Shown here: piece after piece, positions 1-37,297 of the stretch
Layout: every line of letters begins with the position of its first letter
How positions within the stretch are numbered: position 1 is the first letter of the stretch
DNA from: Phycisphaerales bacterium
Lineage (GTDB): Bacteria > Planctomycetota > Phycisphaerae > Sedimentisphaerales > Anaerobacaceae
Length of the DNA stretch: 64,000 nt
Direction: 5' to 3'
Assembly (NCBI GenBank): GCA_003141315.1
Contig: PLLP01000022.1
Location: 62,001 to 126,000, forward strand
Position numbers and translations under genes: made by a program
The notes under the pieces: model-generated
What the model was told of the DNA's origin: nothing
Databases searched by the model: none
What the model saw: only the letters and a program-made list of their open reading frames with translations

Positions 1-104
1 CCCGTGAAAGGAACGGCGGCTTATAATCAAACCACCACAAAAGCTAAACCGCACCTGCCAATAAAACGAATCGGCCGGCGTCTCTTATGTTCCAGACCAC
101 GAGA

Positions 105-131
105 ACAAAAACAAAATCCCGATTTTTCGGG
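105..131 (-). terminator. Intrinsic terminator behind the B12 riboswitch
   Basis: On the minus strand a short hairpin CCCGA-AAAA-TCGGG (131-118) is followed at once by ATTTTGTTTTTGT. It lies just 3' of the B12 box, where the expression platform of a transcription-terminating riboswitch is expected. The stem is only 5 bp, so efficiency is uncertain. An antiterminator pairing was not worked out. Confidence 0.6.
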
Positions 132-138
132 CCTGAAT

Positions 139-375
139 ACAGGCAGGTTTTCTGACTTGCGTCCTGCCTTGAGGCGCCTTCCCATCCCGTTTTATCGAGA
201 AAGTGGCATAGCAGGCAAAATGCCCTACTACTAAATACCTCTCGGCCTTGCCCCGTGCCAGCCTCGATTCCTCGAAGCGGCGGGGCGCGGACGCTCACAG
301 CGGCGGGTCCGTCGCGGATTTTAACCGCGTTCCCTTTTTACTAACATCTTCCGGCGCGAGCCTGAAGACCTGTAA
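139..375 (-). promoter_or_regulatory. Cobalamin (B12) riboswitch
   Basis: Read on the minus strand, the region shows the conserved blocks of an adenosylcobalamin riboswitch in order. They are an ACAGGTCTTCAGG-like 5' part (373-361), GGGAACGCGGTTAAAATCCG followed by the ACGGACCCGCCGCTGTGA core (about 335-297), the GGGAAGG block near 190-180, and the 3' B12 box AAGTCAGAAAACCTGCCTGT (157-138). This class binds cobalamin and usually represses B12 synthesis, uptake or B12-independent isozymes. The switch reads towards position 1, so the regulated gene lies outside the window. It is separate from the coiled-coil gene ending at 496, whose mRNA may run into it. Confidence 0.9.
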
Positions 376-495
376 TCAGCTGCTGCTCCGCATAATCCCG
401 ATTCAACAGGGACTATGCACGAGCTATCCATTTTCCAAAGAACACTTACCGTTTTAACAAACACTAAAAAACAATCAAGAAAAATTCCAAAACTT

Positions 496-1332
496 TTATC
501 GTGCAAGATAAAGGATAATTCCCGTCAGTGCTGCTATCGCCACCAAGCAGATGCCAAGCGACACCGCAAACAGCCACATAAACTGCTTATTCTGCCGGGA
601 TATTACATACTTCAGATATTTTTCGCTTGTCGAAAAAGTCTTGCTCATCTGCATAATGCTGTCGGTATGGCTGATGGTATTCTGATTGAGCCTGGCAAGT
701 ATCTCATTAAATTTCTTGAAACCTGACGCCATATTATCCTCCGCATCCGCCGTCACGTTGAGCTGCTCATTTATCTCTTCCAGCAAATCCGTTTGCCTAC
801 CCGCCTCCGCAGGTATCTTTTCCACTGCCTCCAGAAACTGCTCATTTTTTAACTGCATATCGGACAACTGCTCCGAAAGCTGCAGGCGAATTTTTTCCTG
901 GTTTTCCACTATCGCCGGAAAGCTCCTTACCAGTTCCGGCATTGTGTCTAATCGCGATATCAATTCCATGTGCTGCCTGAGCTGCTGTTCAAGATTGCCG
1001 TTTATCGCCTCCAGTTTATCAACAACCCTGTTAAGCGATGCCTGCATCTTTTCATTCTGGTTAGCCTGGCCGGCTGTCCCGCCTGCGGCGAGCTTGTCGA
1101 ATCCGCCCGCGGCAGGTCCTGACCCTACCGGAACACCTGCCTGCAAACCTCCCCTTCTCCCTCCCTGTCCTTCTGAACCCGACCCGGAACCTTTACCTTC
1201 CGCGGCAAGCTCCTCAACATCCCTGGCCATCAGACCCTCATCGTCCAGACGAGGCTCTGCGCCGCCTTCGGAAGGCTCATCGCCAAAACCCAGCCAATTC
1301 TTAACCTTCGACCAGAATTCTCTTATTTCCAT
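496..1332 (-). CDS. C-terminally membrane-anchored coiled-coil protein, function unknown
   Basis: The 278-residue product is not a family I recognise. Residues 1-50 are acidic, about 50-90 are a Gly/Ser-rich linker (GSGSGSEG, GGRRGGL), and about 95-240 are charged heptad-like helix with many Gln, Glu, Leu and Ile, as in a coiled coil. A single hydrophobic helix at the very C-terminus (about 252-276, ending YLAR) would anchor it in the inner membrane, with the bulk in the cytoplasm because no signal peptide is present. The ATG at 1332 is preceded by GGGGAATTCGAA, an acceptable ribosome site. The next element downstream is the B12 riboswitch, so the gene is probably monocistronic. A scaffold or chemoreceptor-like role is conceivable but unsupported. 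Confidence 0.75.
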   Translation of the reverse strand: MEIREFWSKVKNWLGFGDEPSEGGAEPRLDDEGLMARDVEELAAEGKGSGSGSEGQGGRRGGLQAGVPVGSGPAAGGFDKLAAGGTAGQANQNEKMQASLNRVVDKLEAINGNLEQQLRQHMELISRLDTMPELVRSFPAIVENQEKIRLQLSEQLSDMQLKNEQFLEAVEKIPAEAGRQTDLLEEINEQLNVTADAEDNMASGFKKFNEILARLNQNTISHTDSIMQMSKTFSTSEKYLKYVISRQNKQFMWLFAVSLGICLVAIAALTGIILYLAR

Positions 1333-1452
1333 TTCGAATTCCCCGCAAAACTATTTCAACTGCATATTAAACGATTTTCCTTATGGAAGTTCAAGTCTTT
1401 TTTGTTATTATTACTGTCCTAAAACTTATACCAGAAAATAAAGGGAAAAACT

Positions 1453-2415
1453 ATGAAACTGGTCACATACTCAAAGAACGCTGTAATCTCCTGCGGAATT
1501 CTTTCCGGCAATACTATAATCGATATCTCGTCTGCCCAACAGCTCAAAAATCCGCCCTGGGATATGCGCGAAATCCTCGAAAGAGGCCCCGACTTCCTCG
1601 ATACCCTTCAAAAAACGCTTTTATCTAAACAGGCCAACCCTGTAAAAATCCCGCTTGAAAATGCGAAACTGCTCGCACCAATCCCGAGGCCCGGCAAAGT
1701 CCTCGCTCTGGCGGGAAATTTCAGCGAGCACATCCGGGAGGCCAGCATCACTCGCGGCTTCAAACTCGGCTTATCCGATTCCACCCGCCAGACCACCGTC
1801 CCCCGGCCATTTCTCAAACCCTCGACGTCCGTAATCGGCACGAACGAGGAAATCCCCTGGCCCGACTACAGCGACAAAATCGATTACGAAATCGAACTCG
1901 GCGTCGTCATCGGTAAAAAAATAAAATACGCCAACCCCGAAGAATCTCTCGCCGCCGTCGCCGGCTGCACAATCGTCAACGACGTCTCCGCCCGCTCTGC
2001 TGCATTCAAAGAAGGCAGAAAGCAGAGACCCTGGGACGAATTCTACGACTGGCTCAACGGAAAATGGGCGGATGGCTTTCTGCCGATGGGGCCTTACTTG
2101 CTTACCTCGGACGAAATTGGAGATATGCAGAATCTCGATATGGAACTGAAAGTCAATGGCCAGACCCGGCAAAAGGCCAGCACCTCGCAGATGATTTATT
2201 CCGTCGCTGACATTGTTTCATTTTTAAGTCACATTATGACGCTCGAACCCGGCGACATCATCGCCACCGGCACCCCCGCGGGCGTAGCCGTCGCCACGGG
2301 CAACTTTCTCGAAGCCGGCGATTCCATCGAATGCTCCATCGAAAAACTCGGCACTCTTACAAACACTCTCGGCCCGAAACCGGGAAAATTCTACACCCCT
2401 CTCTCGAATACTTAA
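1453..2415 (+). CDS. Fumarylacetoacetate hydrolase (FAH) family protein
   Basis: The 320-residue protein has the FAH C-terminal domain. The metal-binding acidic pair appears in IDYEIELGVVIGKK (E146, E148), with the downstream Asp in TIVNDVSAR (near 177) and the family signature IIATGTPAGVA near residue 280. FAH enzymes cleave or isomerise beta-diketo acids such as acylpyruvates, 2-hydroxyhepta-2,4-dienedioate or 5-oxopent-3-ene tricarboxylates in aromatic catabolism. They can also decarboxylate oxaloacetate, so the substrate cannot be named. The N-terminal 70 residues are the usual small FAH lid domain. AAAGGGAAAAACT precedes the ATG. No catabolic genes lie next to it, and two GC-rich hairpins follow. 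Confidence 0.88.
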   Translation: MKLVTYSKNAVISCGILSGNTIIDISSAQQLKNPPWDMREILERGPDFLDTLQKTLLSKQANPVKIPLENAKLLAPIPRPGKVLALAGNFSEHIREASITRGFKLGLSDSTRQTTVPRPFLKPSTSVIGTNEEIPWPDYSDKIDYEIELGVVIGKKIKYANPEESLAAVAGCTIVNDVSARSAAFKEGRKQRPWDEFYDWLNGKWADGFLPMGPYLLTSDEIGDMQNLDMELKVNGQTRQKASTSQMIYSVADIVSFLSHIMTLEPGDIIATGTPAGVAVATGNFLEAGDSIECSIEKLGTLTNTLGPKPGKFYTPLSNT

Positions 2416-2424
2416 GGCAACCTC

Positions 2425-2500
2425 TAAAAATTCAACTTTTGGGTTAGCCCGCACCCCTGTGGTGCGGGGGTTGTTTAGCCGTCGCCGTGCCGGCGACGGG
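2425..2500 (+). repeat. Tandem GC hairpins after the FAH gene; repeat copy
   Basis: Two perfect hairpins follow the FAH stop. The first is CCCGCACC/GGTGCGGG (2448-2468) and the second is CCGTCGCC/GGCGACGG (2479-2499). The first is followed by TTGTTTAG and could act as a terminator. The leading text CTCTAAAAATT..ACTTTTGGGTTAGCCC recurs, diverged, at 5346-5385, so this is a dispersed intergenic repeat. The second hairpin carries the TTTAGCC lead also seen at 46875 and, inverted, at 22068. Confidence 0.6.
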
Positions 2501-2557
2501 GTATTTGCTTATTGACTTTCAAATCCAACAAATAGTATATTGACGACAAAGGATTGA

Positions 2558-2625
2558 ATGCAGAAATCCTGAAAGGGCAAAAACTCCTCACTGCTTTTGG
2601 TATCCTTTTTCAGGACAGCCTGCAT
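2558..2625 (+). promoter_or_regulatory. Three-tier inverted repeat upstream of the phosphohexomutase gene
   Basis: An imperfect long stem is visible. ATGCAG (2558-2563) pairs with CTGCAT (2620-2625), TCCTGAAA (2567-2574) pairs with TTTCAGGA (2608-2615), and an inner CAAAA can pair with TTTTG. The sequence TTTTGTTTTGGATTTTT follows, so it could be an attenuator or terminator 45 bases before the start codon, or a palindromic element. TTGACGACA at 2539 shows no clear partner -10. Confidence 0.5.
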
Positions 2626-2669
2626 TTTGTTTTGGATTTTTAAGTCTTTAGTCTTTTAGGAGCGAAGCG

Positions 2670-4064
2670 ATGGACCCTTCAATTTTTAAGGCTTACGACA
2701 TAAGAGGCATATACCCCGACCAGGTGAACGAGGACGCCGCCTGGAAAATCGGTTACGCCAGCGCACAGTTCCTGCGTTCGCTGCTTACCGGCTACGCCCG
2801 CGGGCAGGCCAACTGCCATTGTATTTGTGTCGGCTACGATATGCGAACCCACAGCAAACCACTCGCAGATGCCCTTATCAAAGGTATGAATGCGGTCGGG
2901 GCAAATGTTATCGATATTGGTATGATTGATACGCCGCAAATTTATTTCGCCATCAATCACCTTAACACCTGCGGCGGCATCCAGGTCACAGCTTCGCACA
3001 ACCCGGCCAAATATAACGGCTTCAAAATTTCTGGCCAGCAGGCAAAACCAATCGGCGCCGATACCGGCCTGAAGGATATTGAGCATATCGCCCTCGCGCT
3101 GCTTCACACGAAAAGCAAGGCCGATGCCTCTGTCGAGCAATACGACATTACGCCGTATTACAAAGAGCACGTATTAAAGTTTCTCAGGCCGAACCTGCCC
3201 GCTACGGCGAATCGCGGCCAGCGAAAACTCAAAATCGCCATTGACGCCTCCAACGGAATGGCCGGCAAAATGGTGCCTATCATTTTCGGCGGCCTCCCGC
3301 TCGAAATCATTCCTCTCAATTTCGAGCATACAGGCGTCTTCAAACACGACCCCAATCCGCTCATAGAAGAAAACCTCGCCGATGTTAAAGCCGCCGTCAA
3401 AAAAAATAATTGCGATTTCGGCATCTGTTTCGACGGCGACGCCGACAGGCTGATGGTCGTCGATGAAAATGCTGAAACTGTAAGCTCCGACCTCCTCACG
3501 GCACTCATCGCTCCTTACTTCCTGCAGACCTCGCGCGGCGCAACCATTGTTTATGACCTTCGCAGCAGTATGGTCGTCGCTGAAGAGGTAATTAAATTCG
3601 GCGGAACACCGAGAAGGGAACGCGTCGGACACGCCTTTATGAAAAAAGCTATGCGCGACACTCACGCCGTATTTGGCGGCGAACTCTCAGGCCACTTCTA
3701 TTATCGCGATAACTTCTATGCCGATTCCGCCCTGATTACCTTCGTTCATCTTATCAATATCATAAGCGGCGCCGATGTTCCCCTGAGCAAACTCATCGAA
3801 CCCCTCAGACGATACCACAGCAGCGGCGAATTGAACTTCAGGGTCGATGACAAGCAGAAAAAAATGGACGATCTCGAAAAAAAATACGCTGCCGGTCAAA
3901 TCGACCGCCTCGACGGCATCACCATCCGTTTCAAAGACTGGTGGCTCAACTGCAGACCGAGCAACACCGAACCCTTCCTTCGCCTCAATGTCGAAACTAA
4001 AAGCAGGGAAATCCTGGACCAGAAAATCGATGAAATAGAAAAAATTATCGGCCAGCCCGTCTAA
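2670..4064 (+). CDS. manB: Phosphomannomutase/phosphoglucomutase
   Basis: This is a 464-residue alpha-D-phosphohexomutase, the usual length for the AlgC/ManB type. All four signatures are present. They are the phosphoserine loop TASHNP (Ser109), the Mg-binding loop FDGDADRL (D255, D257, D259), the sugar-specificity loop GGELSGHF (337-342), and the phosphate-binding loop RPSNTEP (429-435). It interconverts hexose 6- and 1-phosphates for nucleotide-sugar, lipopolysaccharide and exopolysaccharide synthesis in the cytoplasm. GGELSGH fits bifunctional PMM/PGM enzymes better than phosphoglucosamine mutase. TTAGGAGCGAAGCG precedes the ATG. An inverted repeat sits in the leader, and no obvious co-transcribed sugar genes adjoin. 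Confidence 0.93.
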   Translation: MDPSIFKAYDIRGIYPDQVNEDAAWKIGYASAQFLRSLLTGYARGQANCHCICVGYDMRTHSKPLADALIKGMNAVGANVIDIGMIDTPQIYFAINHLNTCGGIQVTASHNPAKYNGFKISGQQAKPIGADTGLKDIEHIALALLHTKSKADASVEQYDITPYYKEHVLKFLRPNLPATANRGQRKLKIAIDASNGMAGKMVPIIFGGLPLEIIPLNFEHTGVFKHDPNPLIEENLADVKAAVKKNNCDFGICFDGDADRLMVVDENAETVSSDLLTALIAPYFLQTSRGATIVYDLRSSMVVAEEVIKFGGTPRRERVGHAFMKKAMRDTHAVFGGELSGHFYYRDNFYADSALITFVHLINIISGADVPLSKLIEPLRRYHSSGELNFRVDDKQKKMDDLEKKYAAGQIDRLDGITIRFKDWWLNCRPSNTEPFLRLNVETKSREILDQKIDEIEKIIGQPV

Positions 4065-4135
4065 AAATTAAATCAGGATACTCGAATTTCGAGTTTGTTG
4101 TATGATTGGCATTAACTATTGTGGAGTAATTTGAT

Positions 4136-4444
4136 ATGCAGTTAAACACAAAAACTTACCAGACAAAGAATGGTTTGGTTGAAGGCGTTCAGGTAAAATG
4201 GTCAGGTTTCAATATCCTGCTCGTTGCCGGCTCAAAAGGCTTCCTGGCCTGCCCCGCAATCGACATAGAAGCCTGCCAGAGATACGGGCAGGCGGCGGCG
4301 CTCGTTGAAAGCACAGCCGACAACCCAATCGGAACTCTTGAACGATTCGCAGACCGCAAAATTACAAAGGTAAATCCTAACGCATCCGCCATCGGCATAA
4401 AAGAAGGTATGCCCGTCGATGCCGCCTTCAATTTGATTGCATAA
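4136..4444 (+). CDS. YunC/DUF1805-like small protein
   Basis: The 102-residue cytoplasmic protein matches the DUF1805 (YunC) pattern by eye. A two-strand N-terminus is followed by LLVAGSKGFLACPAIDIEACQRYGQAAALV, written here as the blocks SKGFLACPAID and RYGQAAALV, and it ends with an amphipathic segment around GIKEGMPVDAAFN. Members are found near methanogenesis or folate genes and have no established activity. Assignment rests on motif resemblance only. The gene lies 71 bases after the phosphohexomutase and 42 before the next gene on the same strand, so they may be co-transcribed. Confidence 0.65.
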   Translation: MQLNTKTYQTKNGLVEGVQVKWSGFNILLVAGSKGFLACPAIDIEACQRYGQAAALVESTADNPIGTLERFADRKITKVNPNASAIGIKEGMPVDAAFNLIA

Positions 4445-4486
4445 CGGTTCGACCGGCCTTAAAAATCGGAGAAAGGAAGGCAGATT

Positions 4487-5317
4487 ATGAAAAAAATGAT
4501 CTCTGGCAAGTTCCGACACGGTCGGCAAACCCATTGCCTTTTAATAATGATGATGTTTTTAGCAATCCCACCCGCAACAGCATTAAGCGCCGGTACCGCA
4601 GCCTCGCCGACTGCAATTTTGAATCCCGCCCTTACAGGATTAGGCGCCCTGAGAATCACCACATTCTCAAAGGACCCTCAACCCGACTATATCATGGCAG
4701 AAATCAACGCCAGGGTCGCAAAAAAACTTGCCGATTCCGACACTCGCCTTGCCGCCCTGCTCCAGATTGGCAGCAATCCCGCTCTCACTATCAACCCGCC
4801 TATACTGAGAATTAATGTCGACAGATTTTTCCTTACCGTCGACGGCCCTTCAGTCTTTCGTGTCCAGACAACTCTCTTTGCCGATATTCCTGTCGGAATA
4901 AATCCCACAATCGTAATGAATATCGATTTCTGGGCGAGGTCTGACACAATTCGCGTGCTGAATTCGAACAACGAAGTTGCCGCCGTCTACTCCCTCGTTG
5001 ATAAACAAGCCGCGCAATTTGTCTCCGATTTTCTAAGCGCTAATCCGCTGCCTTCGAGGCCGGCTGATGCCAACCATATTACGACTCCGCCCGCTCCGCA
5101 AAAAAAACTCCCTGCGCTTCAGCCCGGCACAATCTCGCAGGATAAAACTCAGACCCAGACTCAGTATCTTTATGTAAGTTCAAAAAACAGCAAGGTCTTT
5201 CATAAATCCAGCTGCTCATTAGCTAAAAGTATATTCCCGAAAAATATCATTTATTACAAAACCAGAGATGAGGCAATCGCCGCCGGCAAAAGACCCTGCA
5301 AGATATGCCAGCCATAA
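4487..5317 (+). CDS. Secreted protein with C-terminal Ada-like zinc-finger motif
   Basis: The 276-residue product begins with a Lys/Arg-rich stretch and a hydrophobic core (LLIMMMFLAIPPATALSAG), a signal peptide with likely cleavage near residue 36. Residues about 50-180 form an unrecognised beta-rich domain. A Pro/Thr/Gln-rich linker (190-225) leads to a compact C-terminal module, YVSSKNSKVFHKSSCSLAK...RDEAIAAGKRPCKICQP. Its H-x3-C and C-x2-C pairs are the arrangement of the Ada-like metal-binding domain often appended to secreted proteins and nucleases. Zn binding is inferred. GAGAAAGGAAGGC before the ATG supports the start. Confidence 0.7.
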   Translation: MKKMISGKFRHGRQTHCLLIMMMFLAIPPATALSAGTAASPTAILNPALTGLGALRITTFSKDPQPDYIMAEINARVAKKLADSDTRLAALLQIGSNPALTINPPILRINVDRFFLTVDGPSVFRVQTTLFADIPVGINPTIVMNIDFWARSDTIRVLNSNNEVAAVYSLVDKQAAQFVSDFLSANPLPSRPADANHITTPPAPQKKLPALQPGTISQDKTQTQTQYLYVSSKNSKVFHKSSCSLAKSIFPKNIIYYKTRDEAIAAGKRPCKICQP

Positions 5318-5510
5318 CTTACACCTTTGAATAGATTGCCCAGCTTCTAAAAATTTGGGAAATCACACTTTTGGTCAGCCCCCACCTTCAGTCCGCCGAT
5401 TAAAATTGCCGTAAGTCTGTGTAATTAAAAGAGTAATAAATCTTTATAGTTTTGAATTTATGCAGACTGCCCAAACATCGTTTTTGTTCGATTTTTAAAT
5501 AAAATTTATT
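5318..5510. repeat. Intergenic stretch with diverged repeat copy
   Basis: No gene is visible here. Bases 5346-5391 carry CTTCTAAAAATT..ACTTTTGGTCAGCCCCCACC, a diverged copy of the repeat at 2425-2456 with a short insertion. The rest is AT-rich and leads into the cold-shock promoter. Confidence 0.4.
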
Positions 5511-5538
5511 TTGCGGCCGATAACATTGAGGGTATAAT
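5511..5538 (+). promoter_or_regulatory. Promoter of the cold-shock gene
   Basis: TTGCGG and TATAAT are separated by 16 bases. Initiation near 5545 would give a leader of about 100 bases, as is usual for cspA-type genes. Confidence 0.6.
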
Positions 5539-5565
5539 GAAACAAACGTTGATTATATTCCTAAT

Positions 5566-5602
5566 TGTCTCTCGGGAATATCTTCGAGAAAAGCGAGGGA
5601 CA
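5566..5602 (+). promoter_or_regulatory. Cold-shock 5' UTR hairpin
   Basis: TGTCTCTCG (5566-5574) pairs with CGAGGGACA (5594-5602), nine pairs with one G-T wobble. The loop contains TCT-TCG-AGA. A second small hairpin, GGCC-CGTAAAAA-GGCC, stands just before the ribosome site. Structured leaders that refold with temperature are known for csp mRNAs, but that behaviour is inference here. Confidence 0.5.
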
Positions 5603-5646
5603 GATATTTAGTGTGCGGCCCGTAAAAAGGCCGAAGGAGTACAGTA

Positions 5647-5850
5647 GTGGCTACGGGTACAGTGAAGTGGTTTGACGAGAAAAAAGGTTTTGGTTTTATT
5701 ACGCCTGATGACGGCGGCAAAGAACTGTTTGTTCACCATTCAGAGATTAAGACGGATGGTTTTGCCACCCTTGCTGAAGGCCAAAAGGTACAGTTCGAGG
5801 TCGGCCAAGGAAAGAAAGGACCCTGTGCGACCAACGTAATTCCCAGCTAA
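5647..5850 (+). CDS. cspA: CspA-family cold-shock protein
   Basis: The 67-residue, single-domain OB-fold protein has both RNA-binding motifs intact, RNP1 (KGFGFITP, about 14-21) and RNP2 (LFVHHSEI, about 27-34). It binds single-stranded RNA and DNA and acts as an RNA chaperone in the cytoplasm. Translation starts at a GTG preceded by CCGAAGGAGTACAGTA; no ATG is available in frame. The gene has its own promoter and structured leader and is closed by a strong terminator. Whether it is cold-inducible or constitutive cannot be told from sequence. Confidence 0.95.
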
Positions 5851-5869
5851 TGATGAATTATAGCGACAA

Positions 5870-5908
5870 AAAAGGCTCCGAATTTTGCCGGAGCCTTTTT
5901 TCTTTTTT
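5870..5908 (+). terminator. Strong, possibly bidirectional terminator
   Basis: GGCTCCG (5874-5880) and CGGAGCC (5889-5895) are followed by TTTTTTCTTTTTT and preceded by A-rich sequence. It can therefore also end transcripts of the convergent aminotransferase gene. Confidence 0.9.
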
Positions 5909-5919
5909 GCAGCAGTAAG

Positions 5920-5996
5920 CCCCGTTAGAGAACCACACAGATTTCGGCGAATCGAAGGCGAATACTAAACCTTTGAAGCGTAGTTCTCTAACAGGG
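5920..5996. repeat. 77-bp element with CCCCGTTAGA-type inverted ends
   Basis: CCCCGTTAGAGAAC (5920-5933) is matched by GTTCTCTAACAGGG (5983-5996), 14-base inverted ends with one mismatch. The same outer ten bases form the ends of the larger element at 54707-54864. It lies between convergent genes and has no coding content, so it is probably a miniature non-autonomous element. Confidence 0.6.
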
Positions 5997-6002
5997 TTGA
6001 CT

Positions 6003-7238
6003 TCATCTTAAAGATTTTCTTTCCCTGAAAATGTCATTTAAGTTTGTTATGAGATTTATTATTTCATTTTCCGCTATCGTAAAAGCAGGAAGAAATAAAA
6101 TGATATTTCGCAGCTTATTACAGCCAATCATAAATCCCCGCTCCAGCATTTTATGATGCACGTATTTGCTATCAATATAATTATCCGCATCGTTAGAAAG
6201 TTCGACGCCGACCATTAATCCCCTGCCTCGCACCTCTTTAATAAATCCATACTTTTTCTTCATCTCATTTAATTGATTCAACAAAATAGTTCCTGACTCA
6301 TAACTTCTCTCTACCAACCTTTCTTCCTTCAATATATTGATAACCTCTTTTGCGACTGCACATCCCAAAGGTGAATTCTGATGAGACTGGCCATAGCCAA
6401 AACTTTTTTCTTCGAGTTCTTGTGCGACTTCCCGGCTCATCGCAGCCGCGCTGACAGGATAACCATTTCCCAGCCCTTTTCCGACTGCGACAATGTCCGG
6501 CTTGAATTTATAATGATTGAAACCATACCATTTGCCGGTTCGCCCCATGCCCGTAGTAACTTCGTCAACAACAATAAGACCCTGATTCCGTTTGACCTCT
6601 TTCGCAATTAAATCCACCAATCCTTCGGGTGGAAATTTCACGGTTCCGCAGGAGCTGCCAAGCTCAAAGACGACCGCTCCAATTGACTCGAATGGAATAT
6701 TTTTTATTTTTTCACAGTTCAAATTGCATTCATCTTTTTCTTTACAGGTTAGACAACTTTCAAAATCAAAACCAATCCATTCATCGGAATATTTATTACC
6801 CGCCGCTCCATAAGCCGCCAGGTAAGATTGCATAAATGTTAATAAATATTTGTTGCCCGTTATGTTTTTTGCGATTTGCACACCGAATTCGACTGCTTCA
6901 CTTCCCGAGCTCAAAAATACGCACTTTCCGTCAGGTAAACCGACTGTATCCAGCAGAGCGACAGCAGCCTCTTCCGCCAAAAAGTTCGTATAGCGAAAAC
7001 CAAGATTCATCACAAGGTCGATTTGTTTCTTTATAGCTTCATTGACACGTTGATTATTATGCCCGAGTGCTGTGCACCACAAACCGGATTCGAAATCGAC
7101 ATACCTCTTGTTCTTCGAATCATAAAGATAGCAATTCTCTCCCCTGACAATATCCCCTTTAACCATCTGGTGACACTTAAGTATATGCTCCAGATTTTCC
7201 TCTCCCGTTTTAAGTGATAATTTTCTTTCGTTTTTCAC
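6003..7238 (-). CDS. Class III PLP-dependent aminotransferase with a Cys cluster
   Basis: This is a 411-residue fold-type I aminotransferase of the ornithine/acetylornithine/glutamate-semialdehyde group. The cofactor loop SSGSEAVEFG (about 110-119), the Asp in IVVDEVTTGMGR (D225) and the Schiff-base Lys in AVGKGLGNGYP (K254) are all visible. Amino donor and acceptor cannot be named. Two oddities stand out. An insertion carries CLTCKEKDECNLNC (C162, C165, C171, C175), a four-Cys metal-site pattern. The usual Y-H-G near residue 138 is replaced by SYLAAYG. The GTG start overlaps the stop of the upstream C_GCAxxG_C_C gene by GTGA, so the two are translationally coupled. Confidence 0.88.
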   Translation of the reverse strand: MKNERKLSLKTGEENLEHILKCHQMVKGDIVRGENCYLYDSKNKRYVDFESGLWCTALGHNNQRVNEAIKKQIDLVMNLGFRYTNFLAEEAAVALLDTVGLPDGKCVFLSSGSEAVEFGVQIAKNITGNKYLLTFMQSYLAAYGAAGNKYSDEWIGFDFESCLTCKEKDECNLNCEKIKNIPFESIGAVVFELGSSCGTVKFPPEGLVDLIAKEVKRNQGLIVVDEVTTGMGRTGKWYGFNHYKFKPDIVAVGKGLGNGYPVSAAAMSREVAQELEEKSFGYGQSHQNSPLGCAVAKEVINILKEERLVERSYESGTILLNQLNEMKKKYGFIKEVRGRGLMVGVELSNDADNYIDSKYVHHKMLERGFMIGCNKLRNIILFLPAFTIAENEIINLITNLNDIFRERKSLR

Positions 7239-7693
7239 TTTCGCTTCTGCCCCTGTACTGACATTTCTTCAACAATCTCAACTGCGTCCCACACTAATCC
7301 CGCACAAACCTTATTATGCAAATCCAGCTCAGCTATTTTTTTCGCGCCATCCGCGGTGCTTACGTCATAGCCAAGCAACTCCCTGCACAAAATCGAACCG
7401 TGCCGCTTTTTGAACCTGTTCTCAAATTCCGCGACAATTCCGTAAATCTTCGCCTTTTCCTGTTTTATGTCCGCCTCCGTCAAGAAAAATTTCAGCCCAA
7501 GCGCCATAATCGCGCCCGTCACCACCCCGCAGATGTCGCCGCTTCTTGCAATTCCGCCGCCGAACCCGCTCGATACCTTCATCGCAAGTTTTTTATCAAG
7601 CCCGGCCTCGTCTGCAAAAACGCCCAGCACCGCCTGCGAACAATTGAAACCCTTCCCGAAATCCACTGCCGCCTTTTCTGCTTTGCTGCTCAT
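7235..7693 (-). CDS. C_GCAxxG_C_C family protein
   Basis: The 152-residue protein fits the C_GCAxxG_C_C (redox-active, Cys-rich) family. It has FNCSQAVLGVF at about 15-25, GGGIARSGDICGVVTGAIMALG as the core signature near 44-65 (key residues G, C, G and A), a Cys in ILCRELLGYD and one in VCAGLVWDA. Members are small helical proteins with conserved Cys, associated with metal or redox chemistry, but no reaction is proven. I chose the ATG at 7693 because GAAAGGTTTGTTT stands before it; a TTG 15 bases upstream is also in frame. It is coupled by a 4-base overlap to the aminotransferase downstream. Confidence 0.8.
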   Translation of the reverse strand: MSSKAEKAAVDFGKGFNCSQAVLGVFADEAGLDKKLAMKVSSGFGGGIARSGDICGVVTGAIMALGLKFFLTEADIKQEKAKIYGIVAEFENRFKKRHGSILCRELLGYDVSTADGAKKIAELDLHNKVCAGLVWDAVEIVEEMSVQGQKRK

Positions 7694-7757
7694 AAACAAA
7701 CCTTTCAAATTCCATAAACTGCAACCTGATGCCCAATGAACCTTTTAGAAACAAAGT

Positions 7758-8744
7758 TTATGGAGCGGTTGTAAACTTCAATACCGGACCGATATACCTT
7801 TTCTTGTTTGCATCGATTGTATCAACACGCCAATAATACGTTGTTTTCTTTTGTAAGCCGGAAGGCGTAAAACCGGGCTGTTTGGCACTTATAAATGCAG
7901 GATTCGTTTTCCCCGCCGGCCAAATCGAGTTGGCATCCGTGCCAAACGCGACCTCATAATGGTCCGCTGAAATCTTCTCATCATTTGTCCAGCTCATCGC
8001 TGCATTAGTTGAAACCCCGTTGGAATCGTTTGCCGGCTTCACGCTTGTGAGAACACATTTTTGATTGCTATCAGGCCCCGTCTGGTAATTCAAAAGAATC
8101 TGCAGGTCCGTTAGCGGCGAATTATAAATCCTGAATTCATCAATCGCCCCCTTAAGGAGCCCGTCGCTGTTGTAAGAAGATTTGCCGAGATAAAGATGTT
8201 CGGTACCGATATCCGACAATTTAACAGTAAGGTTTTTTTCGCCAATAAGCACAGCGTTCACATAAAGTCTTGCCTTCTTCGAGGCTGAATCAAAAATAAC
8301 AACCACGTATATCGGAACATTCTCAGGCAAAGGCTTGTTATCTATCGTCTCTTCATATTTATAGCCCGGGTCTGTATTCGAGAATGTCGTCCGTGAGCCT
8401 TTAGAGTATTTCGGCGTAAAATACCAGCAGTTTGCACCGAGACCTTCTTTATTTGTATTTCCGAAATCAAAAACGCGAACCCAGTTCCCATTATTCTGAT
8501 AGCTGAACCAGGTCTCGACGGCTGCACAGTTTAATTGTGTCACCATACCGCCCGGCAGCTCAGCCCATCCGCCGCCATCGAGTTTTAATTTCCCGTCAGC
8601 GATTACCGCCGTTCCCTTCAGCTTTCCATTATGTGCGCCGGCTGAATCATTCGCATCAGCCGTAAAACTGTATCGGCTTATCATATCCGCCATTGCAGGA
8701 TTGATAAAAATTCCCACCAAAAGTAAAGCGTATATCTTTTTCAT
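7758..8744 (-). CDS. Secreted LamG/concanavalin-like domain protein with Fn3-like C-terminus
   Basis: The 328-residue protein carries a classic signal peptide (MKKIYALLLVGIFINPAMA). Residues 22-220 form a LamG-type jelly roll. Recognisable parts are RYSFTADANDSAG at the start, WVRVFDFGN, the VVVIFDSASKKARLYVN strands and GAIDEFRIYNSPLTDLQI at the end. Residues about 232-328 look like one fibronectin type III-like domain (PANDSNGVSTNAAMSW...TTYYWRVDT). Such modular secreted proteins bind glycans and are very common in Planctomycetota. No catalytic domain is present. No PEP-CTERM or lipobox is seen, so it is presumably periplasmic or released. Confidence 0.82.
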   Translation of the reverse strand: MKKIYALLLVGIFINPAMADMISRYSFTADANDSAGAHNGKLKGTAVIADGKLKLDGGGWAELPGGMVTQLNCAAVETWFSYQNNGNWVRVFDFGNTNKEGLGANCWYFTPKYSKGSRTTFSNTDPGYKYEETIDNKPLPENVPIYVVVIFDSASKKARLYVNAVLIGEKNLTVKLSDIGTEHLYLGKSSYNSDGLLKGAIDEFRIYNSPLTDLQILLNYQTGPDSNQKCVLTSVKPANDSNGVSTNAAMSWTNDEKISADHYEVAFGTDANSIWPAGKTNPAFISAKQPGFTPSGLQKKTTYYWRVDTIDANKKRYIGPVLKFTTAP

Positions 8745-23019: not shown

Positions 23020-23562
23020 CTAATATTCGATACCGCGTCTTGCTTCTATACCTTTATCGAAAGGATGCCTGATACTCTTCATTTCCGTCACCAAGTCCGC
23101 CAGCTCCATCAATTCCGTTGTTGCCCCCCTGCCCGTTAAAACAATCTCAACGGAGCTATCCCTGCCCCGAATTATACCTCTAACGTCATCGATGTCCGCA
23201 AGCCCCTTCGACAGGCAGAATACAATCTCATCGAGAACGAACAAGTCGTAAGCCCTGTCTTTCGCCATTTCAGAAATCTTCCGCAAAACAAGTCGTATGG
23301 CATCCCGCATCCGGCTCACCTGCTTTTCATCATTAAAGGATACAGCCATATCCCACGGCTGGTCGAGGCAATCAACTTTAATACTTCCCGGCCCCTTCCT
23401 TAAGATAAACCGCTCGCCGCATTCGACAAATTCCGGTTTCAGGAACTGATAAATAAGAACTCTGTTCCCCTGCCCTGCCGCCCGAAGCGCCAAACCGAAA
23501 GCAGCGGTCGTCTTACCCTTTCCATCGCCCGTATAAATTTCGACAAGTCCTTTTTCAAGCAT
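23020..23562 (-). CDS. cobO: Cob(I)yrinic acid a,c-diamide adenosyltransferase (CobA/BtuR type)
   Basis: The 180-residue enzyme attaches the 5'-deoxyadenosyl group of ATP to Co(I) corrinoids to make adenosylcobalamin. The inverted P-loop TGDGKGKTTAAFG spans about 11-23, FLKPEFVECGE follows, and YDLFVLDEIVFCLSKGL holds the Walker B-like Asp/Glu. C-terminal AELVTEM-type and HPFDKGIEARRGIEY endings are characteristic of the family. No Shine-Dalgarno is obvious before the ATG. It fits with the B12 riboswitch at the left edge and with the methyl-folate fusion protein, which implies corrinoid chemistry. Confidence 0.93.
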   Translation of the reverse strand: MLEKGLVEIYTGDGKGKTTAAFGLALRAAGQGNRVLIYQFLKPEFVECGERFILRKGPGSIKVDCLDQPWDMAVSFNDEKQVSRMRDAIRLVLRKISEMAKDRAYDLFVLDEIVFCLSKGLADIDDVRGIIRGRDSSVEIVLTGRGATTELMELADLVTEMKSIRHPFDKGIEARRGIEY

Positions 23563-27229: not shown

Positions 27230-29677
27230 TTATTTTGCGGGCTTCCTGCACTCCTGGCAGAATTTCCCCATCAGCTTCATAGACTCGTTGAGCCTTGCCT
27301 TTGAGCCGTCCATTTTCGCGAAGGCATCGACTAATTTAAGCAGTTCCGGGTCCGGCTCGACAAAACCATAACGATGCGCGGTATTGAGGATAGCAGCGTC
27401 AAGGCCGTACTCCATAGCCTTTGCCACATAAGCCCTGCAGACGCCGATTTTCCGACCGGGAAGCTCCCGAACGGAATTGCTTACGCCGAGCGAGCAATGC
27501 ACGCCCTTCATTTGCCCACCGCTTTTGATTTTTTTAATGGTCTCGAACGCCCTGTAAGTATAACCCGGCACGTTCGGCTGCATCGGCATATCTATCGCGA
27601 GAGGAAAAACGGTCGAATCAAAAAATATCTCCCGCGGCTTAAAGCCGTACCTGCCTACCGCCTCCGCGTAAATCTTCTGCGCAAATCCGTAAAGCTCATC
27701 GACCGAATGTGAGCCGCCGGGACCTTTGGGCTTATCCACGCCGATTAAAAGCCCTATGAACGCAAAATCATAATGCTTCTTCAGCGGCAAAATCTTGTCC
27801 ATCGTATAAACTTTTACAGAATTTATAAGCGGCTGCCTCACCCATTTTGCGGTGTTATACCACTCCTTCAGCCCGGCAATCAAAACGTCGTTATTGCTGC
27901 TGTCAAAACATATCGGCACGCCGTCACCCCACCGGTGAATCAGCCGCACATACTGCTTCATCATCTCAACCGCGGTCTGCGGGTCCTTCTCGCCGAAAGC
28001 GTCGAGATTGACGGCGATGTAATCCGCATTCTCCGCAACCTGCGATTCAATCAATGCCCTTATATAATTCAGCGGGCCGCTCGGCTTCTCGAAAGCGTCA
28101 GGCCCAAGCTGGGCAAGCTGCCTCATAATTTTCCCCGTCTTCGGTATCGAGGCGTGAATCGTCTCGCCGATGGAAATCAAAAAATTCCGCCTTGAGTGGT
28201 CTTTGGCGAACAGGTAATTGAGAATCGATGACGTATGTTCGAGTGCGGGATTGCGGGGCTTGTTTATCGTCGCACGCAGTTTTTCAATACCGTTTTCCTG
28301 GCTGCTCGCCGCCTGGTAAATCAGTTCGCCGATACAAACCTTGTCTAAATTATTTCCACAGTAGCCCTCGACCGTCGCATCGCCGCAGGGCGGGTTATCG
28401 AGACCTTTTTCGCAGCCGCCGATAGTGCATAACCCGAAATTTTCAGGCAGGTAGCAGTCGCCGCACTCCTCGCAGTCGAACAGCATATACTTAAACGATT
28501 TCTCGGAGGCATTAAAAAATTTATACATCGCCCCCTTGCCCTTCTCCGTTCCGAGAATTGACATTAACTTTCTGAAGGCGTAGAAACCGCTGTAATCCGG
28601 GTTCAGAAACGCCCTGTGGAAAAAATTGAAGAACCTGTGTTTGAATTTTTTCGGATATTTCGTAAGCGCCGTGCTTTTGCCGTTTTCGCCGTAAAGATAA
28701 AAGCCGTTCTTTTTCGGCCAGCAGAGATTGTCCTTATACTGCTCCCAACTCTCGCCTATTTGCGCAGCCCTGGTAAGGATTCTGGAAAAAATCGCAAAAT
28801 CGCTCACGCCCCCGATATCCGCTCCAGCCGCCCCAAGCGATTTATACATCGCCACCTGCTGTGCCGCACGTTCGATATGGGCGTCAACCTTTTCGGAATA
28901 AATTTTTGCCAGCAGCTCATCGCTCACAAAACAGCCGGTAAGCTTAATGTCGTGCATCAGCCTCGGCGCCGCCGTAAGCGTGCTTAACAGGTACACGTTG
29001 CCGATAATCGGAACATCGATGCCGGCTTCTTTTGCATACCTGAAAAGCTCCGCCGATTTTTTCCAGTCCCACCCGACCTGCGTAATAAAAAACTGCGCCC
29101 CGCAGTTCACCTTTTTTTCCATCTTGTAATACTGCTGCAAAGAAGAGCCTTCGGTATATTTGAAAGGCGAGACCGCCGCCCCCGCGAAAAACTGAAAAAC
29201 CTTATCAAGCTCTTCCGGCCTGGCCTTGATATACTGCTCGTTATTGGTGTATTTTATAAGGCTGAGCAATCCCGTTGAATCCAGCTCGAAAATCCCCTTT
29301 GACTTTACGGGCTTGTCGCCGGTAAGGGCAAGAATACTATCGACGCCTGCTTTTCTGAAACCCGCCAGCGAGCTAATCAGGCTGTTTGTGTTCTGGTCTT
29401 TACAGGTCTGATGCGGTATAAAATCCAGTTCCCCAAGCAAGCCCTTCAACTTCAGGTCGTTCAGCACATCAGCCGGCTCGATGTTCGCAACGCCGCCGGG
29501 ATTCTGCGGACTTGTAATCCCGACAAAATCGAAATCAGCCGGTATCGCAGAGCTGCCCGCATTCCTGTAATCAGCCAGGAACTTCTCGATGGGCGCAGAG
29601 CTAAAATCTGCCCCGCCCGTCAACTCCGCCACAACAACAAACTTCGATTTTTCTTTTAGCGATTTACTGAATCTCAT
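27230..29677 (-). CDS. Fusion of methylenetetrahydrofolate reductase, MTHFR_C Cys-rich domain and pterin methyltransferase
   Basis: The product is 815 residues from the ATG at 29677 (AAGGATGGTT before it). Residues 1-340 are a MetF-type TIM barrel, with VVVAELTGG at 15-22 and LALTGDKP at 116-123 as the folate/flavin site. Residues about 395-460 are the Cys-rich MTHFR_C (MetV-like) domain, with C402, C405, C408, C417, C422, C431, C440 and C448. Residues about 500-790 are a DHPS-like pterin-binding barrel of the AcsE/MtrH/MetH class, with NLDAFGEKD, CFDSSNNDVLIAGL, LINSVKV, FFDSTVFPLAID and SLGVSNSVRELPGR. The protein could reduce methylene-THF and then pass the methyl group to a corrinoid protein in one polypeptide. 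No corrinoid protein is adjacent. Confidence 0.85.
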   Translation of the reverse strand: MRFSKSLKEKSKFVVVAELTGGADFSSAPIEKFLADYRNAGSSAIPADFDFVGITSPQNPGGVANIEPADVLNDLKLKGLLGELDFIPHQTCKDQNTNSLISSLAGFRKAGVDSILALTGDKPVKSKGIFELDSTGLLSLIKYTNNEQYIKARPEELDKVFQFFAGAAVSPFKYTEGSSLQQYYKMEKKVNCGAQFFITQVGWDWKKSAELFRYAKEAGIDVPIIGNVYLLSTLTAAPRLMHDIKLTGCFVSDELLAKIYSEKVDAHIERAAQQVAMYKSLGAAGADIGGVSDFAIFSRILTRAAQIGESWEQYKDNLCWPKKNGFYLYGENGKSTALTKYPKKFKHRFFNFFHRAFLNPDYSGFYAFRKLMSILGTEKGKGAMYKFFNASEKSFKYMLFDCEECGDCYLPENFGLCTIGGCEKGLDNPPCGDATVEGYCGNNLDKVCIGELIYQAASSQENGIEKLRATINKPRNPALEHTSSILNYLFAKDHSRRNFLISIGETIHASIPKTGKIMRQLAQLGPDAFEKPSGPLNYIRALIESQVAENADYIAVNLDAFGEKDPQTAVEMMKQYVRLIHRWGDGVPICFDSSNNDVLIAGLKEWYNTAKWVRQPLINSVKVYTMDKILPLKKHYDFAFIGLLIGVDKPKGPGGSHSVDELYGFAQKIYAEAVGRYGFKPREIFFDSTVFPLAIDMPMQPNVPGYTYRAFETIKKIKSGGQMKGVHCSLGVSNSVRELPGRKIGVCRAYVAKAMEYGLDAAILNTAHRYGFVEPDPELLKLVDAFAKMDGSKARLNESMKLMGKFCQECRKPAK

Positions 29678-36235: not shown

Positions 36236-37297
36236 TTACTCATCCGATACAGACACAATTTTTTCCTTTAACTGCCGGCAGACCTCTTTCGGATTGGCGG
36301 CCTTCGCCGCTATTGAACTAACCGCAATCGTCCTTGCGCCCGCCCGCAAAACCTGCTCGACATTATCTATTGTTATCCCGCCGATTGCAACGTGGCCGAT
36401 ACCGGTATCCGCCAATAAACGGACGCCGTCGCTTACATACCCCAATCCTACCGGCGGAGCTGTCGGCTTCGTCGGCGTCGCAAAAACCGGACCCAATGCC
36501 GCGTAAGTAAGTCCGCCGCCGGCAAGCCCGCAGGCCGCCTTCAATTGCTCCATCGAATGCGTGCTTTTCCCGATAATCAGCGGGCTTAACTGCAAACGGT
36601 ACGCCTGTTCAACCGGCAAATCGTTTTGCCCCAGGTGAACGCCGTCAGCCCCTGCCGCTGCCGCCACATCCACCCTGTCGTTGATTATACTGATAACACC
36701 CCCCGCCCTGCAAGCCTGCATAAACTCAACCGCCAGGTTAAAAAGCAGGTCATCATCAATCGACTTTGCCCGCAGCTGGATGCAGTCCGCACCCCCCGCG
36801 ATGCACTGCTGCGTAAGACGCAAAACCTCCGCGGGCAGACTGCTGCTGATAACAATATAAAGTTTCACCTTCTTGTATTTTGCAATCGTGCTGCCGAATA
36901 TCAAAAAATCCTTTTCGAGATTGTAGGCCTCATATCGCAGGGTTTCAATCTCACCTGCTGCTGAGGGATTTATGACTGCAATTGTTTCCGACAGGCATCG
37001 CAAGGCCTCCGTAAGCCTCTTGCCGGCTGCCTTCGCCGAATCCCCCAAATCCGCCCGCTGCATCTGGCCGGCCACGGATAAACCTATCCCCACATCATTT
37101 GCGGTATCTCTGCCCGCTATCAGTTTGCCATTATCAATTTTGCACGCAATACCGCAAAGCCGGTGCCGAAGCTCCTTGGCTCGACTTGTCAGAAGATTTG
37201 AATTGAGGGCAAACCTGCAGAATTCCTCTATCACCCTGAGGGCTTCCCTCGCCCGGTTAAAATTGGCATCGATAATTCTATAAACAGCCCGCTCCAT
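36236..37297 (-). CDS. thiE: Thiamine-phosphate synthase with N-terminal ThiD2 domain
   Basis: The product is 353 residues. Residues 1-140 are helical and match the ThiD2-like domain (ANFNRAREALRVIEEFCRF, RDTANDVG, RLTEALRCLSE). Residues about 143-350 form the ThiE TIM barrel, with LYIVISS, GADCIQLRAKS, IINDRVDVAAAAGADGVHLG, GKSTHS and YAALGPVFATPTKP (pyrophosphate loop). ThiE couples HMP-PP with thiazole phosphate to give thiamine phosphate; the ThiD2 part phosphorylates HMP-P in other bacteria. A TATAAT -10 (37313-37308) stands only 11 bases before the ATG, so the mRNA may be nearly leaderless. No thiamine riboswitch is seen upstream. Confidence 0.9.
   Translation of the reverse strand: MERAVYRIIDANFNRAREALRVIEEFCRFALNSNLLTSRAKELRHRLCGIACKIDNGKLIAGRDTANDVGIGLSVAGQMQRADLGDSAKAAGKRLTEALRCLSETIAVINPSAAGEIETLRYEAYNLEKDFLIFGSTIAKYKKVKLYIVISSSLPAEVLRLTQQCIAGGADCIQLRAKSIDDDLLFNLAVEFMQACRAGGVISIINDRVDVAAAAGADGVHLGQNDLPVEQAYRLQLSPLIIGKSTHSMEQLKAACGLAGGGLTYAALGPVFATPTKPTAPPVGLGYVSDGVRLLADTGIGHVAIGGITIDNVEQVLRAGARTIAVSSIAAKAANPKEVCRQLKEKIVSVSDE

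Follow-up and report, generated by a model that had tools for sequence, protein, structure and literature searches.

The window analyzed in this study, a 64,000-nucleotide stretch of DNA from a Phycisphaerales bacterium, encodes an 815-amino-acid (aa) protein in which a MetF reductase barrel, a MetV-type Cys module and a methyl-THF:corrinoid methyltransferase (MeTr) are joined in one chain. The fusion is real and, as judged by sequence comparison, is likely to represent in this organism the folate half of a split methionine synthase dependent on B12, joined to the reductase which supplies its methyl donor. This proposal is based on the observed architecture, fold, conserved residues, genomic parts list, gene context and phylogenetic pattern, from which we infer a role in methionine synthesis rather than in methyl catabolism.

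Domain architecture of the fusion protein

The fusion gene and its modules occupy the following positions in the window:

27230..29677, minus strand: three-module fusion, MTHFR - MetV-type Cys module - methyl-THF:corrinoid methyltransferase, 815 aa (Pfam, NCBIfam, AlphaFold2 model)
28748..29677, minus strand: MetF (MTHFR) TIM barrel, residues 1-310 (Pfam, residue alignment, VIA-align)
28523..28747, minus strand: linker, mostly helical, residues 311-385 (AlphaFold2 model, identity comparison)
28283..28522, minus strand: MTHFR_C/DUF5981 module with eight Cys, residues 386-465 (Pfam, alignments)
27233..28186, minus strand: MeTr barrel, residues 498-815 (NCBIfam, PDB matches, VIA-align)

The open reading frame (815 aa plus stop) starts at the ATG at position 29677, in line with the N termini of its relatives, and the longer start which would yield an 852-aa product is unnecessary. 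Three Pfam models match it in the order MTHFR (PF02219, residues 83 to 265, 4e-19), DUF5981 (“methylene-tetrahydrofolate reductase C terminal,” residues 386 to 462, 5.7e-13) and Pterin_bind (PF00809, residues 541 to 734, 9.2e-8), each above its curated cut-off. Sequence matches in the PDB were to MTHFRs at residues 84 to 286 and to AcsE/MeTr proteins and MetH folate domains at residues 545 to 765. An AlphaFold2 model built from 62 fusions reached a mean pLDDT of 90.3 and a pTM of 0.90, and the linker (residues 311 to 385) was the least conserved part of the protein, with a mean pairwise identity of 51%. An earlier note, made from the letters of the window, had proposed that MetF, a MetV-like Cys domain and a corrinoid-type MeTr are fused in this order, which the Pfam and NCBIfam matches and the modeled fold now bear out. 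Promoter and terminator scans around the gene returned nothing beyond chance.

The MetF part of the model superimposes on the MTHFR structure 1v93 (VIA-align, Z of 24.5, 3.2 A over 274 residues, model residues 1 to 307), and its residues E18, D121 and Q200 are invariant across the 62 aligned fusions. Equally invariant are the eight Cys residues of the middle module (positions 402, 405, 408, 417, 422, 431, 440 and 448), all of which align one-to-one with those of a free-standing MetV encoded in the Hdr-MetV-MetF-MeTr cluster of locus L107; a tblastn search with fusion residues 1 to 520 matched this MetV solely in its C-terminal half. Two hallmarks of a MetVF-type reductase, namely, a PF02219 barrel with the catalytic Glu and flavin/folate residues and a DUF5981 Cys module, are present in the fusion. 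That the Cys block might lack any family match, a failure which the earlier note had named, is countered by the DUF5981 match.

The C-terminal third is most similar in NCBIfam to PRK07535, methyl-THF:corrinoid/iron-sulfur protein methyltransferase (1.5e-23, a score below that model's curated cut-off). AcsE-type and metH models rank next, and dihydropteroate synthase (DHPS) models are absent from its NCBIfam matches. The identity of this part as FolP/DHPS, the other failure named in the earlier note, is consequently ruled out, a separate FolP being encoded elsewhere in the genome. In the structural comparison, the MetH folate domain 3k13 aligned with model residues 497 to 811 (Z of 28.2, 2.6 A over 275 residues), in a tie with 4o1e, 5voo and 2yci, which lie within about one Z unit (Z of 27 to 28). 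The alignments with MetH folate domains extend to residues 808 to 811 of the model, while those with AcsE reach just to approximately residue 775. Residues D592, N619, D687, G731 and N734 of the fusion align with AcsE D75, N96, D160, G196 and N199, a pairing which rests on PDB sequence alignments, and D592, N619, D687 and N734 represent the Asp, Asn, Asp, Asn set through which the pterin-binding TIM barrel contacts methyl-THF; we take the roles of these five residues to be those of their equivalents in MeTr generally. The NCBIfam matches, contact residues and MetH/AcsE-like fold support the earlier designation of this part as a corrinoid-type pterin methyltransferase, for which a free corrinoid protein would be the likely acceptor.

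Methionine synthesis genes of the host genome

The genome to which the window belongs (2.35 Mb) is 96.6% complete, and the absence of any one gene could, therefore, reflect an assembly gap. The fusion is its sole PF02219 reductase. Pterin_bind proteins number two, the fusion and a 288-aa protein (C15:26828, 299 bits) which is FolP by sequence, and no methyl-THF methyltransferase other than the fusion was found in this genome. Also encoded are one S-methyl_trans (PF02574) protein, a homocysteine S-methyltransferase of 304 to 307 aa; one small corrinoid protein of 208 aa, with cap and B12 domains (PF02607 and PF02310) and a DxHDxxG motif; and one intact RACo-type (DUF4445) activase of 546 to 556 aa, in which an apparent in-frame TGA is actually the natural stop codon, past which the match had extended. 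A second, weaker PF02607 match in a 249-aa protein is taken for a B12 sensor. Searches of this genome identified neither a single-chain MetH with homocysteine, folate, cobalamin and activation domains nor the activation domain itself (Met_synt_B12, PF02965), nor was a Meth_synt_2, MetE or MesB protein present.

The three-part split MetH set, comprising a PF02574 protein, a PF02607 plus PF02310 protein and a PF00809 domain, is thereby present in this genome, along with the DUF4445 reactivase. Mutant fitness data show that Phaeobacter inhibens makes methionine with PF02574, PF00809 and PF02607 plus PF02310 proteins and a DUF4445 activase (PMC5764234). Because the parts match those of this three-part methionine synthase, the fusion is read here as providing the folate half of such a split enzyme. 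The corrinoid protein, homocysteine methyltransferase and RACo genes are dispersed and lie away from the fusion; a small corrinoid gene adjoining the fusion can, thus, be dismissed for this genome. A fused EtfB-EtfA-like open reading frame of 698 aa (L090, 4479-6575), which adjoins an ETF:quinone oxidoreductase-like gene, is separated by approximately 3 kb from the gene for the corrinoid protein.

Distribution of the fusion and its partners

A scan of genome contigs for this domain order, a search which the earlier note had suggested, identified at least 79 loci, at least 71 of them near full length and mostly from Phycisphaerae/Sedimentisphaerales; the others came from metagenome-assembled genomes (MAGs), two of Kiritimatiellales, one of Acidobacteriota and one each under the names Kuenenia and Blastopirellula. 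As the near-full-length copies are independent and some are located on single-contig chromosomes, an assembly or frameshift artifact is ruled out. Across a survey of 396 genomes of the class, the fusion was found chiefly in the order to which the window belongs. Many other members of this order possess just a stand-alone MeTr of approximately 320 aa, whose identity to the C-terminal part of the fusion reaches 73%, and a few other families encode a two-module MetF-MTHFR_C protein.

Eighty chosen genomes of the window's order were surveyed further; these are largely MAGs, and absences among them are soft. Neither MetH nor MetE was detected in 63 of the 74 genomes with an intact MeTr, that is, in 33/43 with an intact fusion and 30/31 with only a stand-alone intact MeTr, and a strong match to the small corrinoid protein was present in 40/43 and 27/31, respectively. 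Three genomes without an intact MeTr of this kind displayed the reverse, with a full MetH and no small corrinoid protein. Many relatives additionally encode an S-methyl_trans protein of approximately 620 to 700 aa (homocysteine methyltransferase/MetF where checked) and nine possess MetE, and the fusion is, therefore, not the sole methionine route everywhere.

The earlier note had framed the fusion in terms of acetogens, in line with which it might deliver methyl-THF to a corrinoid iron-sulfur protein for acetyl-CoA synthesis, as in the methyl branch of the Wood-Ljungdahl pathway. Certain fusions (those of L077, L079 and L067) do sit in Wood-Ljungdahl neighborhoods, and in genome G367, which has CODH/ACS, a detached MeTr is part of an HdrA-MvhD-HdrC-HdrB-MetV-MetF-MeTr cluster. 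However, CdhC (CODH/ACS) is absent from the genome under study and was detected in just 3/43 genomes with an intact fusion compared to 19/31 with a detached intact MeTr (Fisher P of ~8e-7, a value which ignores the relatedness of the genomes). Furthermore, L077 and L079 hold a separate AcsE, and the MeTr residues of their fusions have been lost. Acetogenesis was, therefore, rejected as the main reading for this organism, for which such a role is considered very unlikely.

Fission and decay of the fusion

Stand-alone MeTr genes nest among the fusions in the phylogenetic tree, where well-supported branches require a minimum of four label changes, the bootstrap being not fully settled. Locus L099 retains, at 6402-6500, a relic in which fusion residues 2 to 34 run out of frame into the sequence from residue 464 on, and pieces of the Cys block persist upstream of MeTr in L101 (6036-6077) and L103 (6232-6294). 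In these three loci the reductase half has been deleted and MeTr retained with all of its residues intact, a fission caught in the act.

A second fate is represented by the class B fusions (L067, L071, L072, L074, L075, L077, L078, L079, L082 and one in L098, at 6097-8538), from which N619, G731 and N734 have been lost in various ways. Their mean pairwise identity is 41% in the MeTr part versus 62% in MetF, compared to 67% and 62%, respectively, in class A, to which the window protein belongs, with all of its pterin-binding residues present. The decayed C-terminal barrel of class B is nevertheless retained at full length. EtfB/EtfA-like genes are located near the class B fusion of L098 (1347-3251) and may represent an electron donor, although a Rho-like gene intervenes.

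Such decay bears on whether the C-terminal barrel is catalytic at all, as the protein could simply be a MetVF-type methylene-THF reductase carrying a structural or regulatory barrel, a situation which has apparently arisen in class B. For the window protein this is highly improbable: its contact residues are complete, MeTr is more conserved than MetF within its class, no other enzyme for the methyl transfer from methyl-THF was found in its genome, and in loci which have lost the reductase MeTr persists by itself with all of these residues unchanged. Each of the nine surveyed genomes in which a class B-like fusion was recognized (G291, G343, G309, G353, G256, G232, G355, G211 and G264, assigned by lower identity in the class survey) also encodes a class A fusion or a stand-alone MeTr, and the decayed fusion of L098 is followed by an intact MeTr gene. 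The retention of an intact MeTr of this family despite the presence of a Wood-Ljungdahl AcsE points to a separate job, namely, methionine synthesis.

Gene context

Three further features of the window serve as context:

23020..23562, minus strand: CobO/BtuR ATP:corrinoid adenosyltransferase (PF02572, 5.8e-54; context)
125-388, minus strand: cobalamin riboswitch (Rfam RF00174, 71 bits)
36236..37297, minus strand: ThiD2-ThiE fusion (thiamine; recurrent neighbor; context)

The first two correspond to the cobO at 23020 and the B12 riboswitch at 139 to which the earlier note had drawn attention; the riboswitch, being on the minus strand, reads toward the low end, and its gene consequently lies outside the window. 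The ThiD2-ThiE fusion is a conserved neighbor, in the window and at approximately 28 related loci, of both the MetF-MeTr fusion and the stand-alone MeTr, marking the two as an orthologous locus.

In relatives, stand-alone MeTr is located 11 nt from a PRK08645-type homocysteine methyltransferase/MetF gene in L096 and L097, directly after MetF in L108, and in L107 as the last gene of an HdrA-MvhD-HdrC-HdrB-MetV-MetF-MeTr cluster (1-6039; Hdr and MvhD named on the basis of sequence, MetV and MetF on that of Pfam). A two-module MetF-MTHFR_C gene is found beside corrinoid protein and RACo genes in L118, L121 and L122 and beside a separate MeTr in L116 and L117, the latter also with FTHFS. The modules are, therefore, linked even where they are not fused. 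The L107 cluster itself represents a MetVF reductase of type IV-like form to which a methyltransferase has been added, here in Planctomycetota. Among the fusions, that of L029 is near a corrinoid protein and FTHFS, while class B fusions are located beside AcsD, AcsE and FTHFS in L077 and L079 and beside CODH/ACS genes in L067 (these neighbors of class B being read from sequence).

Locus L064 (8914-20684; Kiritimatiellales) groups the fusion with FolD, FTHFS, corrinoid protein, RACo, DUF1638 and an MtaA/CmuA-family methyltransferase, and resembles a cluster for methyl catabolism, or for this combined with methionine synthesis. DUF1638 was also found near these genes in L096, and the MtaA/CmuA-type methyltransferase of L064 bears a thioredoxin domain and is followed by a CobW-like gene. 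Such a grouping would suit operation of the fusion in reverse, whereby a methyl group removed from a substrate (glycine betaine, a methylamine, a methoxy compound or methanol) would pass via the corrinoid protein to THF on MeTr, and MetF would oxidize the resulting methyl-THF for energy. In addition, the best-scoring families for the 208-aa corrinoid protein are of the MtgC/MtbC (demethylation) type, albeit below their cut-offs and with MetH ranking behind, and one MtgCD pair is reported to serve both methionine synthesis and glycine betaine use in marine bacteria (PMC12478193). In the genome under study, however, no substrate methyltransferase was found near the corrinoid gene, and the fusion system is the sole candidate methionine route found. 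Oxidation of methyl-THF by a low-potential MetVF-type enzyme is also unfavorable. On balance, the reverse direction appears rather unlikely. The energetics of MetVF-type reductases are discussed elsewhere (PMC8760232).

Proposed function

For the preferred role as the folate half of a split methionine synthase, the MetF barrel is predicted to reduce 5,10-methylene-THF to 5-methyl-THF with electrons which probably enter via iron-sulfur clusters in the MetV-type Cys module. The C-terminal barrel would then bind 5-methyl-THF and pass its methyl group to the Co(I) of the separate MtaC/MtgC-like 208-aa corrinoid protein, from which the separate homocysteine S-methyltransferase would form methionine, while the RACo/RamA-like ATP-dependent activase would keep the corrinoid reduced. 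We further suggest, tentatively, that methyl-THF may be handed from the MetF barrel to the MeTr of the same chain without mixing with bulk folate, providing a private, possibly ferredoxin-driven line to the corrinoid protein, which may have been repeatedly dismantled, by fission or MeTr decay, where the Wood-Ljungdahl pathway also needs methyl-THF.

If correct, the proposed function would explain methionine synthesis in a large group of mostly uncultured Phycisphaerae which, possessing neither MetH nor MetE, seem auxotrophic by standard annotation. The fusion would also offer one enzyme in which reductase and methyltransferase can be studied together with regard to channeling and to the electron donor of MetVF-type reductases, and the repeated fission with relics, coupled with the decay of class B MeTr, constitutes a natural experiment on when fusion pays.

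Comparison with known systems

The individual modules, the MetVF types and split MetH have all been described previously, while for the fusion of the reductase with MeTr we could find no description in the open-access full-text literature. The split methionine synthase of P. inhibens (PMC5764234) shares the separate homocysteine methyltransferase, corrinoid protein, pterin protein or domain and DUF4445 reactivase, and likewise lacks PF02965; here, however, a MetF plus MetV-Cys reductase precedes the pterin part in one chain, and the host is a Phycisphaerae-type planctomycete. With the MetVF-type (type II) reductase of acetogens (PMC8760232) the fusion has in common the MetF barrel and the eight-Cys C-terminal module of MetV, but it forms one chain rather than two subunits, MetV is recognizable by tblastn just in its C-terminal half, MeTr is added, and the genome encodes no CODH/ACS.

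AcsE/MeTr (PDB 2yci, 2e7f and 1f6y) displays the same TIM-barrel fold and methyl-THF contact residues, although the MeTr of the fusion is 22 to 27% identical to it and bears a C-terminal extension which aligns with the MetH folate domain; in the Wood-Ljungdahl relatives L077 and L079, moreover, AcsE is a protein of its own. The folate-binding domain of MetH (PDB 3k13 and 5voo) is the best or tied-best fold match over residues 497 to 811, yet in the fusion it occurs without attached homocysteine, cobalamin and activation domains. Finally, the PRK08645 (YitJ-type) homocysteine methyltransferase/MTHFR likewise joins a MetF barrel to a barrel of methionine synthesis, but the partner in that case is the homocysteine barrel, the order differs, and there is no Cys module.
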